Shown: piece after piece, positions 15,544-41,122 of the stretch
Layout of the letters: every line of letters starts with the position of its first letter
Position numbering within the stretch: position 1 is the first letter of the stretch
From: a virus
IMG/VR virus record: IMGVR_UViG_3300017971_000377
Coordinates: 1 to 48,141 of that record
Length of the DNA: 48,141 nucleotides
Reading direction: 5' to 3' (one strand)
Translations under genes and position numbers: made by a program
The notes under the pieces: generated by a model
Databases searched by the model: none
What the model was told of the DNA's origin: nothing
Seen by the model: only the letters and a program-made list of their open reading frames with translations

Positions 15544-15787
15544 AACTACTGTTTTTGAATTACATATGGGTAGCAACAGTTTTAGTAAGGATGATATAGG
15601 AAAAACAGTTTGGCTTACTAGACCACAATGGTATGTAAGATTATTGGATCGAATAGGAAGAGGTTTTCCTTTTTTAGACAACATATGTAGACGATTAATT
15701 GCAAGATTTTACGGATGTGGATATTTTAAAATTGTTGATGTTATTGATAATATGACATTAAAGATTGAACGAGAAAACAAATGGTGA
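15536..15787 (+). CDS. Hypothetical protein
   Basis: An 83-residue protein beginning MNKTTVFELHMGSNSF. The ATG at 15536 overlaps the preceding stop (ATGAATAA), and a frame open further upstream is taken to be chance. It is aromatic-rich with a central IGKTVWLTRPQWYVRLLDR segment. Its stop overlaps the next start. No family recognised. Confidence 0.55.
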   Translation: MNKTTVFELHMGSNSFSKDDIGKTVWLTRPQWYVRLLDRIGRGFPFLDNICRRLIARFYGCGYFKIVDVIDNMTLKIERENKW

Positions 15788-16440
15788 TAGAAGGATATAA
15801 GTTTTTGGGGAAAGACTATAGGTCAATGTACGGCAATTTTCAGTTTAAGGTAGGAGAACGGTACAAACATGATGGTCCAGTTAGATTATGTGAGTCAGGT
15901 TTTCATTTTTCTAAAAGACTAAGTGATGCGTTCAGTTATTATGGAAAGGAGGCACATCATTGTTGTAAGGTAAAAGGAAGTGGAAGGATGGAGGAAGGAC
16001 AAGACAAGGTTGTTTGTTCAGGTATATATATTGAGAAAGAATTGAATTTTGTTGAGGTATTAGAGGAATTAAGTAAACATGATAGCGTAAAAAAAGGAGT
16101 AGCGGAGAATCCCAATTGCCCGGCAGAAATATTAAAGAAGTTAAGTAAAGATGAAAATTTGAATGTTAAGATGTCAGTAATATGCAATCTTAGTTGTCCT
16201 ATAGGGATATTGGAAAAATTAAGCAAAGACAAGCATTGGCATATTAGAACATTAGTGGCAGAACATCCCAGGTGTTCTATAAAAATTTTAGAAGAGTTAA
16301 GTGAAGATAAAGATTGGTATGTTAGATATGCGGTAGCAGGGCATCCTAGTTGTCCTGTGAAAGTGTCAGAAAAATTAAATAAAGATATAAATTCTAACAT
16401 GTTAATAGCAGTGGAAGAGAGTAAATATGGAACTATCTGA
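15781..16440 (+). CDS. Second DUF7666-like/LRV repeat protein
   Basis: A 219-residue paralogue of the gene at 1233. The N-terminal domain is nearly the same in its motifs (GYKFLGKDYRSMYGNFQF, KVGERYKHDG, GFHFS, EAHHCCKV). The C-terminal part has four or five LRV repeats of about 26 residues (for example LSKDKHWHIRTLVAEHPRC). The repeats are more divergent and fewer than in the first copy, while the N-terminal domain is better conserved. That suggests the N-terminal domain is under stronger constraint. It overlaps the downstream nuclease by 14 bases. Confidence 0.75.
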   Translation: MVIEGYKFLGKDYRSMYGNFQFKVGERYKHDGPVRLCESGFHFSKRLSDAFSYYGKEAHHCCKVKGSGRMEEGQDKVVCSGIYIEKELNFVEVLEELSKHDSVKKGVAENPNCPAEILKKLSKDENLNVKMSVICNLSCPIGILEKLSKDKHWHIRTLVAEHPRCSIKILEELSEDKDWYVRYAVAGHPSCPVKVSEKLNKDINSNMLIAVEESKYGTI

Positions 16441-21833: not shown

Positions 21834-22352
21834 ATGAGCTTACAAACGCGGATAATATATCCATTTGTAGAAACATGGCAAGATTATCCTGATTCGGTTA
21901 GTAATGCGGTATTGGTTTATTTTGTTGGCTGTGACAATTATTGTAAAGGTTGTCATAATCATCAATTAATTAATTATTATAATAATGATGCCAGGTCTAT
22001 TTTTCTTGGTAATTTTATTGAAGACTTAAACAATATGTGCACAAGGTGTAATACTGATAAAGTAGTTTTAAGTGGCGGGGATCCGTTGTATTGTAAAAAT
22101 GTGGAATTTGTTAAAAGTTTTTTAGTTCAGAACAATTTATCAGTTACTATTTACACTGGTTATGATTATAGTTATGTAAAACGATGTGAAATATCTGGTT
22201 TTGATTTTATAAAAGTTGGAAAATTTATTCCAGAAGAAAGTCAACCTCCAGCCAAGAGTGACACATTTCTTAGATTAGCATCAAAAAATCAAAAGATTTA
22301 TAATAAAGACCTCATTGAAGTTACAGACGGCAATGGGGTCTTTTTCTTTTAG
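21834..22352 (+). CDS. nrdG: Anaerobic ribonucleotide reductase activating protein NrdG (radical SAM)
   Basis: A 172-residue radical SAM protein with the cluster motif CDNYCKGC (C33, C37, C40) near the N-terminus and the VLSGGDPLY Gly-rich AdoMet contact. It generates the glycyl radical on NrdD using AdoMet and a 4Fe-4S cluster, which needs strictly anoxic conditions. The gene directly precedes nrdD, its partner. A terminator-like hairpin begins inside its last codons (22307-22350). Confidence 0.9.
   Translation: MSLQTRIIYPFVETWQDYPDSVSNAVLVYFVGCDNYCKGCHNHQLINYYNNDARSIFLGNFIEDLNNMCTRCNTDKVVLSGGDPLYCKNVEFVKSFLVQNNLSVTIYTGYDYSYVKRCEISGFDFIKVGKFIPEESQPPAKSDTFLRLASKNQKIYNKDLIEVTDGNGVFFF
22307..22350 (+). 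terminator. Intrinsic terminator-like hairpin between nrdG and nrdD
   Basis: An 11-bp stem (AGACCTCATTG at 22307-22317 with CAATGGGGTCT at 22331-22341, one G-T pair) and a 13-base loop are followed directly by TTTTTCTTTT. It overlaps the end of the nrdG coding sequence and stops just before the AGGAG of nrdD. It would reduce nrdD relative to nrdG unless antiterminated. Confidence 0.65.
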
Positions 22353-22362
22353 GAGTCAACAT

Positions 22363-24792
22363 ATGAACACCTCTTCAACTCTGTCTGAATTTGTTTCTAA
22401 TCCAACAACAACTAGAACAACTACAAATATTACAAATTCTTTAGTACAGTCTTTAACAAGAAAATACAAATTAGGATATGATCTTTGGGATATAGTACAA
22501 AAAATAATGGCTATTCATGGGTTATCAAATGATAAGTTTGATTTTGTTGGTAATTTAAACAAGGTTTTGTGTAACAGATTAAATGATGTGAGCATTGATG
22601 ACAATTCAAATAAGGTTGAAAAAACGTTTGAGGGATTAATACAGGAAGTTGTATGTCCTATTAAAAAATCAGTTGGTTATGATTTTTTATATCAAACAAT
22701 GCGAAAAATATATGGAAAGGAGGAAGCTAAAAGATTAAGCGGGGAGTTGTATGACTTTTCTTTATCATTAAATGATTCAACTAAGATATTAATTCCTTAC
22801 TGTTATTCTTTTAATGCATCTAATATTATATTAAATGGTAGAAAATTTGGTCAATTATATTCTAATCCACCTAAAAGGATCGAGTCGTATATAGCATGTT
22901 TAAATGAAACTATTCATCAAATGTCTCATCATGTCGCTGGAGCTTTAGCTGTTTCTACAATTTTTATAGATTTTTGTCATATTTTATTAATAAAAGAAAA
23001 AATACCTTATTATGATATTATAAATAATATGGCGGTTCGTAAGAGAATAGAAAACGCCTTTCAAATGTTTGTACATTCGGTAAATCATTTATCTAGAAAC
23101 AGCATTGAATCACCTTTTTCTAATATTTCAATCTTTGATAGACCCAAATTGAGAGCATTAATTGAGGGTATGAAATGGTATTTTAATGATTTAAATACGA
23201 ATAATGTGATTGAATATATTATAGCAATTCAAGATATATTTTTAGATTTTTTTGACAAAGGTGATCCATCTAAAAATGGATTGCTTTATAGATTTCCTAT
23301 TTGTACAGTCAATATTTCAAAGAAAAAAAAGGACAATGAATGGGTAGTCGAGGATGATAAGTTTCTTGAGTCAATAGTAAAAAGAGATATTTTTAGGTAT
23401 AACATTTTTTCTAGTGAAGGAATAAAAATTGCTAGTTGTTGTTTTAGGGGAGATCAGCAAGTTGAAACAATGATTAATAGAGATGGAGTGATTTATGCAG
23501 ATTTACCAACCTTTAAAGAGTTAATAGACGATATAGATGATTGTAACGATCGTAGAGTATATTATAATGGGTGGAAACATTTTGATAAGGTTAAAATAGG
23601 ATATAATGATGATTGGATTGAGATTGTTTGTATGGATGGAAAAAAAATAACTTGTACTAAAGATCATTACTTTCCTTGTTTAAGTTATGAGGAAGGATTA
23701 ATTAGATATTATGAATATAATAAAAGGGCAGAAGATTTAACAAGTAATGATTATTTAAAAACTTGTTGTAGTTTTATAAAAATTAAAAAAGTTAATAAGG
23801 TTCAAAACAATGAAGGAGTTGCTTATTGTATTAATATTAGAAATGGTGAACCGTACTTTACATTGGCTAATGGAATTATAACTCATAATTGTCGTCTTAT
23901 TAACGACACAGAGATGTATGAACTAGGTGGGACAATTAATTCATTCGGTGGATCAGCAATATCAATGGGATCTCATCGTGTAGTTACAATAAATATTAAT
24001 AGAATTGCTCTTGAGGCTAAAACTTTAGATGATTATTATGCGATTTTAAAGGAGAGAGTTAGAGATACGGCAAAAATTTTAAAAGCCCATAAAGAATTAA
24101 TAAACATGACTACAAAGGAAGGCATTCAGATGTTTATTAAAATGGGTTGGATAGCGATGAGTAGGATGTTTTCAACGTTTGGAATATTGGGAATAGTTGA
24201 AGCAAAGGAAAATTTGGAAAAAAAATTTGGAAATAATGGTGATTATATTGAAGAAACTCTTAAATTAATGAATAAATTAGTTTTTGAATATTCAAAAAAA
24301 TATGGTATATATGGCAATATTGAACAAATACCTGGCGAAAGTATGGCTGTTCGATTTGCTGAGGTAGATCGGTTATTATTTGGAGACGAAGCAATACCAC
24401 AAAAAATATATTCAAATCAGTTTGTGCCTTTATGGGAAAATTCAACGATTTGGGAAAGGATGGCTGAAGATGGCAAATACAATCAATTGATTACTGGGGG
24501 CGGAATTGTACATGTGCAGGTTGGAGAGAAAACAACCTCACAGCAGTCGAAAAAAATTATCAAATATGCTATTAAGGTAGGCAATGAGCATTTTGCTTTA
24601 AATGCGATCTATACGGAGTTTCAAGATGGTTCATTTATGCTTGGCAAGTATAAAATTAATCCTCAATCTGGCAGTCCTGCTAGGGAATATTATACAAGAG
24701 TTGTTGGTTTTTTTACTCCTGTTGGTAGTTGGAATAAGGTGAGACGAGAATGGGAGTTTCCACAACGAAAGTTCAACGGAGTAGACGTATGA
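22363..24792 (+). CDS. nrdD: Class III anaerobic ribonucleotide reductase NrdD, interrupted by a mini-intein
   Basis: An 809-residue precursor; removing the intein (360-509) leaves 659 residues. It reduces ribonucleoside triphosphates by a glycyl/thiyl radical mechanism. Visible host motifs are IPYCYSFNAS, the CCRL pair (with IASC before and CRLINDTE after the intein) and the glycyl-radical loop RVVGFFTPVGSWNKVRRE near the C-terminus. The zinc-ribbon cysteines normally just upstream of that loop are absent (NPQSGSPA instead of a CPxCGSP form), and no Cys occurs in roughly the last 150 residues. The ATG at 22363 follows AGGAG 7 nt earlier; a longer open frame from 22315 overlaps nrdG and is not used. 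Confidence 0.92.
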   Translation: MNTSSTLSEFVSNPTTTRTTTNITNSLVQSLTRKYKLGYDLWDIVQKIMAIHGLSNDKFDFVGNLNKVLCNRLNDVSIDDNSNKVEKTFEGLIQEVVCPIKKSVGYDFLYQTMRKIYGKEEAKRLSGELYDFSLSLNDSTKILIPYCYSFNASNIILNGRKFGQLYSNPPKRIESYIACLNETIHQMSHHVAGALAVSTIFIDFCHILLIKEKIPYYDIINNMAVRKRIENAFQMFVHSVNHLSRNSIESPFSNISIFDRPKLRALIEGMKWYFNDLNTNNVIEYIIAIQDIFLDFFDKGDPSKNGLLYRFPICTVNISKKKKDNEWVVEDDKFLESIVKRDIFRYNIFSSEGIKIASCCFRGDQQVETMINRDGVIYADLPTFKELIDDIDDCNDRRVYYNGWKHFDKVKIGYNDDWIEIVCMDGKKITCTKDHYFPCLSYEEGLIRYYEYNKRAEDLTSNDYLKTCCSFIKIKKVNKVQNNEGVAYCINIRNGEPYFTLANGIITHNCRLINDTEMYELGGTINSFGGSAISMGSHRVVTININRIALEAKTLDDYYAILKERVRDTAKILKAHKELINMTTKEGIQMFIKMGWIAMSRMFSTFGILGIVEAKENLEKKFGNNGDYIEETLKLMNKLVFEYSKKYGIYGNIEQIPGESMAVRFAEVDRLLFGDEAIPQKIYSNQFVPLWENSTIWERMAEDGKYNQLITGGGIVHVQVGEKTTSQQSKKIIKYAIKVGNEHFALNAIYTEFQDGSFMLGKYKINPQSGSPAREYYTRVVGFFTPVGSWNKVRREWEFPQRKFNGVDV
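23440..23889 (+). other. Mini-intein (150 aa) inside NrdD
   Basis: The intein starts at Cys in CFRGDQQV (block A), has a block B CTKDHYF with the TxxH-type His, a block F near VAYCINIRNGEPYFTLANG, and ends ITHN before the +1 Cys of CRLIND. At 150 residues there is no room for a homing endonuclease. All residues needed for Cys-type protein splicing are present. It lies between the two cysteines of the conserved CC motif, a typical active-site insertion. Confidence 0.92.
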
Positions 24793-30412: not shown

Positions 30413-31102
30413 ATGAGTAAAGAAATTTGGGTTAAATTAAGCGGCTATAAGTACGAATATGAAGTATCCAATTATGGTTATGTTAAATATTTAAAAAAAG
30501 GTAATTATGTTTATTTAACCAGAAGAGGAGGACAAAAAAGGGTTTTCTATACTTTTGTTTTGCAAGATGGAAAAACAAAAAATGTCTCAGTAGGCAAATT
30601 GATATTGACAACTTTTAAAGATCCAGGGTGTCAAGGATTACATGCTGCATATAAAGATGATGATTTTCGCAATTGTCATCTTGATAACTTATACTGGACG
30701 CTTCCATCTGGATTGACCGAACAAAATGTGGTTGATCTTAGAGAGGAGCAACGCAAGGGAGTGTCTTTAAAAGATTTATCAAAAAAATATGGTTTACATT
30801 TTCGTAGTATTAAAGACATAATTGACGGTCGCGTGTGGCCAACAGCGGGGAAGCATTTAAAAAAAGATAAGGAGGTTAAAGCTAAGCAAGAGGTTAAAGC
30901 TAAGCAAGAGGTTAAAGCTAAGCAAGAGGTTAAAGTTAAGCAAGTTAAGCAAAAAACTAACAAAGAATTAAAGAGGACAAAAAAGGAAATAAAAACTTTT
31001 TTAGTTTCTTCTGGTGAAAGAAGTCTTGTTATGGCAAGAATAGCCAAAGTTGAAGAGATGTGTGATGGTATTTTTCGTGATGGAAATACTTATTTGTTTT
31101 AA
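30413..31102 (+). CDS. NUMOD4-type protein with degenerate HNH region and KAKQEV repeats
   Basis: A 229-residue protein. The start (EIWVKLSGYKYEYEVSNYGY) is a NUMOD4 motif, the DNA-binding module of HNH homing endonucleases. A following segment (GLHAAYKDDDFRNCHLDNLYW) occupies the HNH position but lacks the usual NHxDGNxxNN spacing, so cleavage is doubtful. A helix-turn-helix-like part (DLSKKYGLHFRSIKDIIDG) comes next, then a six-residue KAKQEV repeat encoded by four 18-bp units. The protein may be a former homing endonuclease reused as a DNA-binding protein. A divergent relative is at 33460. Confidence 0.65.
   Translation: MSKEIWVKLSGYKYEYEVSNYGYVKYLKKGNYVYLTRRGGQKRVFYTFVLQDGKTKNVSVGKLILTTFKDPGCQGLHAAYKDDDFRNCHLDNLYWTLPSGLTEQNVVDLREEQRKGVSLKDLSKKYGLHFRSIKDIIDGRVWPTAGKHLKKDKEVKAKQEVKAKQEVKAKQEVKVKQVKQKTNKELKRTKKEIKTFLVSSGERSLVMARIAKVEEMCDGIFRDGNTYLF
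30872..30943. repeat. 18-bp tandem repeat x4 (encodes KAKQEV units)
   Basis: Four copies of the 18-base unit GAGGTTAAAGCTAAGCAA, with one change (C to T) in the fourth, followed by a partial copy. The period is a multiple of three, so length changes keep the frame. Confidence 0.9.
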
Positions 31103-33459: not shown

Positions 33460-34158
33460 ATGGTAGAATGGAAGCCGTTGCGGGGCTATGAGTTATATCT
33501 AATATCATCAAATGGGGATATTAAAGATTTAATGACTGATCGATATCTGGTTGCGAGTTATCAAGAAAGTGGTCCAAGTGTATTGCTTTTTAGTGAGAAT
33601 GGATATACTCGCTGTAAAGTAGCAGATTTGGTTTTAAAAACTTTTTTGCGTCTCCCCGAAAAAGATGAGATTCTCTTTTTTTTTGATGGTAATTGTAATA
33701 ATGTAAATATTTCTAATCTTTCATGGAAAAAAAAGAAAGAGGAAGTTGTTAAAAAAAAGCAGCAAATTGCCGATGATTATGTCTGTGCAATCAAATGTTC
33801 ATTTTATTCGGGGAGCCGAAAGATTTCGCAATTAGCAGATTGTTATGATTTGGAAATTGAAGACATAAAAGATATTTTATTTAATCCTTGTTGGAACTAT
33901 ATTGATATTCCTGGAACGAAGATAATCGATAATAATGGTAAAAAAATTCCAGATAGAAAATTGCCTGAATTGGCGGTCTTTCTTAGAAAATGTAATAAGT
34001 ATTATAAAAAACGGAAAATAGACAAAGGAGATATTGAAGAGGGTAAAAACGAAGAAGAAGAATATGATGATTATGAAAAAGAACTCCCTGAAATGTCATT
34101 AAGAGAATTTAGGAACTTTATAAGAAATAAAAATGGAGATGATAATGAAAAAAAATGA
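33460..34158 (+). CDS. Second NUMOD4-like protein, degenerate HNH
   Basis: A 232-residue relative of the gene at 30413. WKPLRGYELYLISSNGDIKD fits NUMOD4. FFFDGNCNNVNISNLSW keeps the N..N..NL.W end of an HNH homing endonuclease, but the leading His is missing, so it is presumably inactive. The C-terminal third is strongly acidic (EEGKNEEEEYDDYEKE), which in phages often means a protein partner or DNA mimicry. It overlaps the next gene by 14 bases. Confidence 0.55.
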   Translation: MVEWKPLRGYELYLISSNGDIKDLMTDRYLVASYQESGPSVLLFSENGYTRCKVADLVLKTFLRLPEKDEILFFFDGNCNNVNISNLSWKKKKEEVVKKKQQIADDYVCAIKCSFYSGSRKISQLADCYDLEIEDIKDILFNPCWNYIDIPGTKIIDNNGKKIPDRKLPELAVFLRKCNKYYKKRKIDKGDIEEGKNEEEEYDDYEKELPEMSLREFRNFIRNKNGDDNEKK

Positions 34159-34660: not shown

Positions 34661-34691
34661 TACAATTGGATTATGCATGGGAGGTTAACAA

Positions 34692-35666
34692 ATGAATACA
34701 ACATTATTTACTAATGAACAAGAAAAGTATACGATAGGTTGGGTCGCTGGAGGCGGGGAGATTAGAGAGGATGGAATTTGGATTAATTCTAAAAAAGATG
34801 TTTCTAAAATTACTGGTATTTCAACAGATGTTTTACGTTTAATCTATAATTATGTAGATTTAAGAAAGTGTGATTTTGACAATTATTTTATATTTGAAAA
34901 ATGGCTTACTATTAGGGGGTTATTTGACAATTGCGGAGAAATTCTTTACAACAATGAACCGCAGTGTATTATCAGCATTAAAGCTAACACTTGGCAAAAG
35001 CGAAAGTTGTGGTCCGATTTGCTTCAAAGAATATATCAATTTATTCATATTCCAGGAAGTTGGGAAAATGTAAATGATGGTTTTAAGATTACATGGCTGG
35101 GCAATAATGCATTAGATTTATTAGGTAAAGTGTACCATTGTCCAAATCAAAGTTCACGTATTTATTTAAGCGAAAATTATGATACATATATATATTTATG
35201 TGCATGGTATCCTTCAAAATTAAAATCTACAGGATTTAAATGGACAAAAACGGATCAGGCAGCACTCCCGCCTACCAAGGAAAAAATCTCAGATGCAGGA
35301 TATGATATTACTATTATTAAGGAAATTAAAACAATTGGTGATGTAACTTTTTATGATACAGGAATAAAAGTTCAGCCTGATTTTGGGTACTATTTTGACT
35401 TAGTGCCTCGTTCGTCTATATCAAAAACTGGCTACATGTTAGCGAACAATGTAGGAATAATTGATCGAGCTTATCGGGGGCCAATTATTGTAGCATTACG
35501 AAAAGTAGATCATTATACTGAAGATTTAAAGCTACCTTGTAAGATTGCTCAAATAATTCCTCGTCATATAGTTCATTTGCAACCGATTGAAGTCGATCAA
35601 CTGGATGAGACTGCTCGTGGCGAAGGTGGATTTGGTAGCACTGATTCTAAAAAAAGAGAACAATAA
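34692..35666 (+). CDS. dut: dUTPase fused to an inactive LAGLIDADG-like domain
   Basis: A 324-residue fusion. Residues 195-320 are a complete trimeric dUTPase with all five motifs: SDAGYD (200-205), PRSSISKTG (239), GIIDRAYRG (255), KIAQIIPR (284) and RGEGGFGSTD (309). Residues 10-150 look like a two-repeat LAGLIDADG homing-endonuclease fold, IGWVAGGGEI and IRGLFDNCGEI. The catalytic Asp of each repeat is replaced (Gly 21 and Cys 81), so DNA cleavage is not expected. It hydrolyses dUTP to dUMP, keeping uracil out of phage DNA. The N-terminal part may be a leftover or a DNA/regulatory domain. Confidence 0.8.
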   Translation: MNTTLFTNEQEKYTIGWVAGGGEIREDGIWINSKKDVSKITGISTDVLRLIYNYVDLRKCDFDNYFIFEKWLTIRGLFDNCGEILYNNEPQCIISIKANTWQKRKLWSDLLQRIYQFIHIPGSWENVNDGFKITWLGNNALDLLGKVYHCPNQSSRIYLSENYDTYIYLCAWYPSKLKSTGFKWTKTDQAALPPTKEKISDAGYDITIIKEIKTIGDVTFYDTGIKVQPDFGYYFDLVPRSSISKTGYMLANNVGIIDRAYRGPIIVALRKVDHYTEDLKLPCKIAQIIPRHIVHLQPIEVDQLDETARGEGGFGSTDSKKREQ

Positions 35667-39238: not shown

Positions 39239-40036
39239 ATGAGCATTAAGAGTTTTAAGGACATTATGAACCTTCATGGGCTAATAGGCCAAGACGAATC
39301 TGATTGGTATCAGCACCAAAACGGCGGCGGGTGGATAAAAAAGACAGCATATGTTAACAAGACAGTATATGTTGGGCCTTATGCAATAGTTTATGGTAAG
39401 GCCTTAGTATCTGGTAAGGCAAAAATTAATGGGACGGCTCAGATTTATGGAACGGTTCGAATTTGGGATGAAGTAAAAGTTTATGGCAATGCAATAGTAG
39501 GTGGAAATGCGGTACTGTTTGACAATGTAGAAATTTATGACAATGCAAAAATTTATGATAATGTAGTAGTAGTTGATGAGGCAATGGTAGCCGGCGAAGC
39601 TATCATATATGATAATGTTCGAGTATATGATAATGCGCGAATTTATGGCAAAGCAAGGGCATTTGACGATGTACATGTAGGTAATAATGCAAGAGTATAC
39701 GAGAATGCAGTATTATTTCATAAGACAAAAATTCGTGGCAACGCATGTGTTTATGGCAACGCATGTGTTAAGGGTTCTAGCATTATTCGTGGTTATGTTC
39801 AAATTTGTGGTGAGGCAGAAGTTGTGGATAAAATTTATGAGGGAAATATCATAGTTTCAACCGCGACATATAAGGGATTGAAGACTAAAGACAATCAAAG
39901 TAAAAAAATTGAATCCAATTTAACACCTGAAGTACCTAAATATAATTCATCATGTCCTATTTGCGGGTCTCCGGCGCAAGATTTAATATTTAAAATTTAC
40001 TGTTCTAAGACAGGATGTCAAAATTATCATCCGTAG
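39239..40036 (+). CDS. Beta-helix hexapeptide-repeat protein with C-terminal zinc ribbon
   Basis: A 265-residue protein in three parts. The N-terminal cap is MNLHGLIGQDESDWYQHQ followed by NGGGW. Next come roughly 25 hexapeptide repeats (IYGNAKI-like, residues about 36-200) that should form a left-handed beta-helix. A zinc ribbon (CPICGSP with CSKTGCQNYHP) ends it. The His residue that acts in hexapeptide acyltransferases is not evident, so a structural or binding role is likely. The partner paralogue is at 40340. A ribosome binding site AGGAG lies 7 nt upstream. Confidence 0.78.
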   Translation: MSIKSFKDIMNLHGLIGQDESDWYQHQNGGGWIKKTAYVNKTVYVGPYAIVYGKALVSGKAKINGTAQIYGTVRIWDEVKVYGNAIVGGNAVLFDNVEIYDNAKIYDNVVVVDEAMVAGEAIIYDNVRVYDNARIYGKARAFDDVHVGNNARVYENAVLFHKTKIRGNACVYGNACVKGSSIIRGYVQICGEAEVVDKIYEGNIIVSTATYKGLKTKDNQSKKIESNLTPEVPKYNSSCPICGSPAQDLIFKIYCSKTGCQNYHP

Positions 40037-40296: not shown

Positions 40297-40315
40297 AGTG
40301 CAATTCAATTGCACT
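40297..40315. promoter_or_regulatory. 19-bp palindrome AGTGCAATTCAATTGCACT
   Basis: Identical to the inner part of the copy at 39173 and located 24 bases before the ATG of the second beta-helix gene, just 5' of AAGGAGG. Confidence 0.75.
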
Positions 40316-40339
40316 GACACAAGGAGGAAAGAAGAGAAA

Positions 40340-41122
40340 ATGGATTTTAGTCAGGTTATGAACCTTCATGGGCTAATAGGTCAAGACGAATCTGATTGGC
40401 ATCAACACCAAAACGGCGGCGGGTGGGTACAGAATATAGCTAGAGTTGAGCCTGCAGCATATATTGGATCCGAGGCAATAGTTTATGGTCATGCGCGAAT
40501 TTATGGCAAAGCGGAGGTGTACAATCAAGCTCGAGTATTCAACAGTGCACAAGTACATGGTCATGCTCAAGTATTTGATAATGCATGGGTTTACGGAAAT
40601 GCGGCAATATTTGATAATGCGAGAGTATTTGGATTTGCATCGGTTGACGATAATGCGAGAGTATATGGTGATGCAATAATACGTGACAATACACAAGTAT
40701 TTGGAAATGCGGAAGTTTATGATCATGTACAGATTGAAGAAAATGCAAGAATTTATGGTAATGCGCGAATTTATGGCCATGCAATGGTTTGTGATAATGC
40801 ACAAGTTTGTGATAATGCACAAGTTTATGGCAATGCAAGGGTCGGCGGTTCTAGCAGTATTGAAGAATATGTTGAAGTTTGTGGTTGTATAAAAATTGCA
40901 GACAATAAAAGATACAGGGGAAATATTGTAATTACTACTACTAATGATGATAAAAAGCGTACTCTTCTTATTAAAAAATCTACAGATGGACAGCCTAATC
41001 CGAAGAAAAAAATTGAATTATCTCAATATAATTCATCATGTCCTATTTGTAAATCACCAGCACAAGATTTAATATTTAAAGTTTACTGCTCCAAGGTGGG
41101 ATGTCAAAATTATCATCTGTAA
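40340..41122 (+). CDS. Second beta-helix hexapeptide-repeat protein with zinc ribbon
   Basis: A 260-residue paralogue of the gene at 39239. The cap (MNLHGLIGQDESDWHQHQ) and the zinc ribbon (CPICKSP with CSKVGCQNYH) are almost identical. The hexapeptide repeats between them have diverged strongly and are more regular (VYGNARI, VFDNAWV). That contrast suggests the two ends carry the conserved function and the repeats vary. The ATG at 40340 has GGAGG 12 nt and GAAGAG 4 nt upstream; the open frame further upstream runs through the palindrome and is not used. Confidence 0.78.
   Translation: MDFSQVMNLHGLIGQDESDWHQHQNGGGWVQNIARVEPAAYIGSEAIVYGHARIYGKAEVYNQARVFNSAQVHGHAQVFDNAWVYGNAAIFDNARVFGFASVDDNARVYGDAIIRDNTQVFGNAEVYDHVQIEENARIYGNARIYGHAMVCDNAQVCDNAQVYGNARVGGSSSIEEYVEVCGCIKIADNKRYRGNIVITTTNDDKKRTLLIKKSTDGQPNPKKKIELSQYNSSCPICKSPAQDLIFKVYCSKVGCQNYHL

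Follow-up and report, generated by a model that had tools for sequence, protein, structure and literature searches.

LAGLIDADG endonucleases occur in introns, in inteins, and as free genes. The endonucleases of inteins and group I introns lie within a host gene, as does the LAGLIDADG domain of the fusion described here, but the fusion has no splicing domain, its dUTPase is unsplit, and its locus shows no Rfam intron. The free-standing LAGLIDADG endonucleases of phages (here loci L097, L098, and L223–L302) have the same two-repeat domain as the fusions; they differ in being unfused, and the sampled ones form a separate clade (branch support 100/99).

Other described systems come close in one respect or another. 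The WHO elements of yeasts consist of a LAGLIDADG endonuclease with a zinc finger, have no exteins, do not splice, and are tied to the aldolase gene FBA1, downstream of which they lie, accompanied by duplicated pieces of the FBA1 3′ end (PMC7282813). HO is a domesticated descendant whose nuclease is still active (PMC7282813). Both resemble the fusion family in joining a LAGLIDADG domain to a zinc-finger module in an unspliced protein, and WHO also in its tie to one metabolic gene. However, the WHO endonuclease and the FBA1 enzyme are not one polypeptide, and HO is an active nuclease, whereas retention of the dUTPase fusion accompanies loss of catalysis. WhiA (DUF199), a transcriptional regulator, has a domain of the LAGLIDADG type (PMC3781837) and, like the protein studied here, is no homing endonuclease; it is a cellular protein in which the partner domain is a helix-turn-helix and not an enzyme. 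The Dut protein of staphylococcal phages, likewise a phage dUTPase with an added segment, acts on Stl as a regulator (PMC5593958); its addition is the internal signaling motif VI, in contrast to the N-terminal former endonuclease domain found here.

Results

A dUTPase with an N-terminal extension

The window, that is, the whole stretch of DNA analyzed, is a linear IMG/VR record of 48,141 bases. It contains a 324-residue ORF in a single frame, the C-terminal part of which has the following features.

34680..34684, + strand: Shine–Dalgarno-like GGAGG, 7 nt 5′ of the ATG of the fusion ORF (read in the sequence)
34692..35666, + strand: LAGLIDADG–dUTPase fusion ORF, 324 residues, one frame (sequence and homologue family)
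35238..35642, + strand: dUTPase domain, residues ~183–317 (profile matches; Z of ~16 to solved dUTPases)
35292..35306, + strand: dUTPase motif I, D201-AGY-D205 (sequence)
35406..35417, + strand: dUTPase motif II, P239-RSS242 (sequence)
35445..35480, + strand: dUTPase motif III, N252..GIID258RAY261RG263, with the catalytic Asp and Tyr (sequence)
35541..35552, + strand: dUTPase motif IV, K284-IAQ287, Lys where most have Arg (sequence)
35616..35642, + strand: dUTPase motif V, R309-GEGGFGST317 (sequence)

All five motifs that the initial annotation had placed in the C-terminal half are thus present, and this half matches Pfam PF00692 (3.8e-16, residues 194–317), phrog_135 (5.3e-28), and, under the curated cut-off, NCBIfam TIGR00576 (1.4e-23). 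The catalytic residues D258 and Y261 of motif III are retained in all fusions. Judged by its sequence, the window protein is a dUTPase of the trimeric type in which no active-site motif is missing, and it should be active. In most members of the family described below, no good internal start was found from which the dUTPase could be made alone, and it would therefore be made as the fusion.

The N-terminal half is a degenerate LAGLIDADG domain

The remainder of the protein was assigned as follows.

34692..35225, + strand: degenerate LAGLIDADG homing-endonuclease domain, residues 1–178 (HMM of intact fusions; collinear alignment)
34728..34763, + strand: first LAGLIDADG helix YTIGWVAGGGEI, residues 13–24, catalytic Asp replaced by Gly21 (codon 34752–34754; alignment column)
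34764..34898, + strand: shortened first repeat, 63 residues between the motifs versus 91–99 in intact members (alignment; low pLDDT)
34899..35186, + strand: second LAGLIDADG repeat, residues 70–165, predicted helix-strand-strand-helix-strand-strand-helix (AlphaFold2)
34911..34943, + strand: second LAGLIDADG motif IRGLFDNCGEI, residues 74–84, catalytic Asp replaced by Cys81 (codon 34932–34934; alignment column)

On its own, the N-terminus (residues 1–180) had no match in Pfam, PHROGs, or PDB sequences, and nothing significant was found with it among phage records. An HMM built from other, intact fusions alone nevertheless scored it at 52 bits (E = 2.7e-15), compared with 6.5 bits (E of 0.26) for the best of 1000 shuffles. 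This link depended on the intact fusions as intermediates, because an HMM of free-standing enzymes alone gave the window protein 6.6 bits, which is rank 1 of 1001 and not convincing. AlphaFold2, run on an alignment of fifteen sequences, gave a pLDDT of ~85 across residues 70–150; from the single sequence the pLDDT was 32 and the model useless. In the second repeat, the model has helix 70–81, strands 82–86 and 90–97, helix 101–118, strands 123–127 and 130–136, and helix 137–148, whereas the first repeat has a helix at 9–19 and is otherwise shortened and poorly predicted. This topology of the full-protein model fits LAGLIDADG; when the same model was compared with PDB folds, the lists were filled by dUTPases.

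The HMM match places the N-terminal domain in the LAGLIDADG superfamily by homology, and the predicted topology fits this assignment. The initial annotation had seen two LAGLIDADG-like helices with the catalytic Asp replaced by Gly21 and Cys81, and this was borne out: both columns are Asp in all 14 intact homologues in the alignment. An active homing endonuclease has an acidic catalytic residue in each motif, and the window protein has Gly21 and Cys81 at these positions. We infer that the domain formerly had endonuclease activity.

The fusion defines a family in phages and bacteria

About 20 IMG/VR phage contigs and more than 20 bacterial genomes, the latter from several lineages, encode proteins of the same architecture, so that the search for the fusion in other phages suggested by the initial annotation had a positive outcome. 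Loci matching nearly the whole window protein came from a query combining this protein with two close dUTPases, and when the scan was repeated with fifteen aligned fusions, further loci emerged in viral contigs and GTDB genomes; both viral scans were complete for the short peptide motifs used as query. Less specific approaches gave little. General dUTPase scans mostly returned ordinary enzymes of 140–210 residues, and when viral contigs were first scanned with a dUTPase profile, none of the 80 loci listed was a fusion. A DNA pattern joining FDxxG to DAGxD retrieved the window itself as the only fusion, and a search for sister phages by means of the window RecA gave no close relative. Neither the window protein nor an intact relative, used as query, had 80% of its length covered by any one place in 50,697 phage records, and the same held for the window protein in plasmids. 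A match on a Peribacillus plasmid (residues 68–320) proved not to be a fusion, being preceded by a stop codon and an unrelated DCD-like gene.

Members typically consist of a Cys-rich N-terminus (~60–140 residues before motif 1), two LAGLIDADG repeats, and the dUTPase; the window protein, whose LAGLIDADG domain runs in frame into a complete dUTPase that belongs to the same clade, is thus a member. Most loci are metagenomic. Intact fusions match Pfam LAGLIDADG_3 (PF14528) at up to 3.8e-13, and profiles of the fused domain match the homing endonuclease in PDB 2dch at 5.8e-8 and the free-standing phage endonucleases at ~1e-37. No match to Intein_splicing or Hint was found in the window protein or ten relatives, and the window locus and eight related loci gave no Rfam match at the gathering score. 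As there is neither a splicing domain nor a group I intron, we read the intact protein as endonuclease and enzyme in one chain. The WhiA model did not match the window protein, and the best fusion relative tested, L306, reached 15.8 bits (E = 0.007; cut-off 44.1).

Searches of the full text of open-licence papers turned up no account of a LAGLIDADG–dUTPase architecture, consistent with the statement in the initial annotation that no such family was known to it. Among predicted viral structures, the best match is a dUTPase of 386 residues from Clandestinovirus, a giant amoeba virus (BFVD A0A8F8KKJ2), which aligns with nearly the entire fusion model (26% identity, E of 5.6e-17, rmsd 18.5); going by this model comparison, Clandestinovirus may carry a fusion too.

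Intact and dead members

Sixteen fusions, fifteen of them viral and one from Polyangia (L576), are intact, with Asp in both motifs (ASDG or AADG, then DGDG or EGDG) and a spacing of 91–99 residues. In the window protein, the motifs read GGG and DNCG, and the first repeat has ~60 residues. Dead members have lost both motifs' Asp. Among viral contigs these are the window protein, L310, L317, and L401–L407; those in genomes come from Microscilla (L462), Planctomycetota (L463), Polyangiaceae (L464 and L466), Methylomirabilis (L465), Myxococcales (L473), and the Desulfurobacteriaceae. In L317, the first-motif column of the alignment holds an Asp, within a motif that is otherwise broken. The Cys-rich module is present in almost all intact members (absent from L408, unclear in L576), whereas dead members begin near the first motif, and in several lineages the first repeat is shortened.

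In a joint alignment of ten dead members, the catalytic Asp is found once in motif 1 and never in motif 2, and the conserved Lys and RK pair are retained in one to three. The LxRK dipeptide, present in 14/14 intact relatives compared, is absent from the window protein. By contrast, G16, R75, G76, L144, and Y148 are retained in all ten, which belong to different phyla. These column counts show that residues for cutting and probable DNA contact were lost and that fold residues were kept. Most phage relatives look able to cut DNA, and the fusion is not dead as such. The proposal of the initial annotation, a homing endonuclease captured by the enzyme and kept after losing cleavage, therefore stands for the window protein, in which both Asp are replaced, but not for most of its phage relatives, which are intact.

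Origin of the fusion and loss of catalysis

In a tree of 53 LAGLIDADG domains, with a limited sample of free enzymes, all fused domains fall on one side of a branch (100/99) separating them from the sampled free-standing enzymes. This favors a single event, and the fusion is likely to have arisen once. In the dUTPase tree, the fused enzymes occupy one supported part (97/92; 30 rows, one of them unfused), with three more fusions just outside it among unfused enzymes. The dead label requires eight changes on this tree, at least five of which are forced by well-supported branches, and mixed sister pairs occur (intact L307 with dead L310, 100/98; intact L576 with dead L464, 100/99). On the dUTPase phylogeny, then, catalysis was lost repeatedly within the family. 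The LAGLIDADG tree instead places the dead L462, L463, and L464 together (97/95), in conflict with the pairing of L464 and L576; because of this conflict, and because the dead domains form long branches, losses were counted on the dUTPase tree only.

L576 and L464 lie in two Polyangia genomes with common neighbors, including guaA, and in opposite gene orientation, which points to either a local inversion or an independent arrival. The chromosomal slot with dead and intact fusions in this class is also listed as L464 and L606. The fusion was found in 3 of 192 genomes of the Polyangia class, the other matching genomes giving dUTPase-domain matches only, and in two of the 15 genomes of the Microscilla family. 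Several Aquificota genomes encode proteins of 318–337 residues (G284:C1:1893814-1894611, G296:C67, G291:C27, G271:C1) whose match to the fusion profile covers its N-terminal and LAGLIDADG part but not its dUTPase part; judging from these partial matches, they are possible relatives of the partner before fusion.

The dead domain is under purifying selection in Desulfurobacteriaceae

A fusion of 287–329 residues, dead in each copy read, is present in 19 of 22 Desulfurobacteriaceae genomes and is the sole good dUTPase match in most of these. At the two loci examined, the gene lies between pnp, whose end it overlaps by a few bases, and a rhomboid gene. The main dut of this family appears to be of a type linked to mobile elements. 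As dS is near saturation in most pairs, we used the five least saturated ones, in which dN/dS is 0.10–0.24 for the dead N-domain (~155 codons) and 0.03–0.13 for the dUTPase part. The dead N-domain is under purifying selection in this clade. No relative close enough to measure selection on the N-domain of the window protein itself was found, and the constraint is that of the bacterial clade.

The rest of the sampled Aquificota have ordinary dUTPases of ~145–170 residues. Two dUTPases of 154–158 residues, L607 (G303:C43) and L479, are unfused, and L479 groups with the Desulfurobacteriaceae fusions. In genome G303, of a related lineage, a domain-free dUTPase gene directly follows pnp, and the LAGLIDADG domain was there either cleanly lost or never gained. 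Since this lineage has the same pnp–dut locus without the domain, the domain is not indispensable everywhere; a domain-free form is therefore possible, and retention elsewhere is informative.

Other features of the window

The window has further features of note. The anaerobic ribonucleotide reductase NrdD (22315–24792) contains a mini-intein: residues 426–482 match Intein_splicing below the curated cut-off, and an endonuclease domain was not seen. Upstream of the fusion, two NUMOD4 proteins (30413–31102 and 33460–34158) have an HNH-like stretch, seemingly without the catalytic His, and a helix-turn-helix-like tail; the pair is apparently a second kind of dead homing-endonuclease relative in the same phage. 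Tandem paralogues at 39239–40036 and 40298–41122 have short repeats of the type KVYGNARVYGNA and are probably left-handed β-helix proteins. Two other paralogues, with a repeated NPNCPVETLEKLSEDNxxxVRxxVA unit, lie far apart (1233–2015 and 15781–16440).

Discussion

We consider the window gene to encode a working dUTPase with a noncutting LAGLIDADG domain that is retained for fold or assembly, and give this reading a probability of roughly 0.75. The phage-borne family, with its Cys-rich module, two LAGLIDADG repeats, and dUTPase, would descend from one fusion. Its intact members are most likely still endonucleases, in which enzyme and homing would travel as one gene with neither intron nor intein involved. 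The window copy has lost both catalytic Asp and the conserved RK pair as well as the Cys-rich module and a large part of repeat 1, while its dUTPase part presumably keeps dUTP out of the phage DNA. What remains of the domain may now be part of the enzyme fold or assembly and would be kept both for that reason and because the dUTPase lacks a start of its own. An argument against this structural role is that misfolding of a fused segment, whatever its nature, would be selected against, which could yield some constraint even if the domain has no positive role.

That two separate genes were merged by a sequencing or assembly error, a doubt raised along with the initial annotation, is for practical purposes excluded, because homologues in phage contigs and bacterial genomes carry the same fusion in frame. 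It is also very improbable that the N-terminal half is an unrelated helical or strand domain. Such a domain would fit the lack of direct database matches and the dUTPase-only fold lists, but not the highly significant match to intact fusions, which are themselves recognized as LAGLIDADG_3, nor the predicted topology. A more serious alternative is that the domain is functionless and decaying, persisting only because an essential enzyme is read in the same frame from the same start codon. Its strong degeneration, the shortened first repeat of several lineages, its clean absence from the same locus in one Aquificota lineage, and the failure to find an alternative start for the dUTPase all agree with this idea, which we still regard as doubtful given the low dN/dS and wide occurrence of the domain in Desulfurobacteriaceae and the retention of fold residues in every dead member compared, across phyla.

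The dead domain could also have been domesticated as a DNA binder, still recognizing a DNA sequence and serving to anchor the dUTPase on phage DNA or to repress a promoter, in the manner of WhiA. Besides that precedent, the purifying selection in Desulfurobacteriaceae and the basic N-domain of some dead members (L464, L465, L466, and L473) speak for such a role, which the initial annotation had also entertained. However, the N-domain of the window protein has a net charge of 0 (pI 6.65), compared with a mean of +8.8 for free-standing enzymes, which makes DNA binding less likely for this protein; it also has no LxRK, and its first repeat is truncated. The N-domain of L471 from Desulfurobacteriaceae is acidic (−7), the conserved Lys and RK are gone from most dead members, the Cys-rich module is absent, and the first repeat is shortened. 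Between intact and dead N-domains, the difference in net charge is not significant (p = 0.12). We regard a DNA-binding role of the dead domain as unlikely, and retention of the domain for fold or assembly of the dUTPase as the preferred explanation.

A further, tentative proposal concerns the intact members, which might constitute a homing element of an undescribed kind, with endonuclease and essential enzyme in one polypeptide. The endonuclease would cut the dUTPase genes, or their neighborhood, of competing phages or hosts, and a copy bringing a cut-resistant dUTPase of its own would take the place of the cut gene. This element, once fixed and stripped of its nuclease, would have left behind the window gene and, in the Desulfurobacteriaceae, the housekeeping dut. 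We think it somewhat less probable than not that the family works in this way.

The family is a lasting unspliced fusion of a LAGLIDADG domain with a metabolic enzyme, and its descendants include catalytically intact forms as well as forms inactivated independently. It may thus offer a natural series in which a selfish nuclease turns into a harmless part of an essential enzyme, and it makes two questions testable: whether the intact form homes without splicing, and what part the dead domain plays in the dUTPase.
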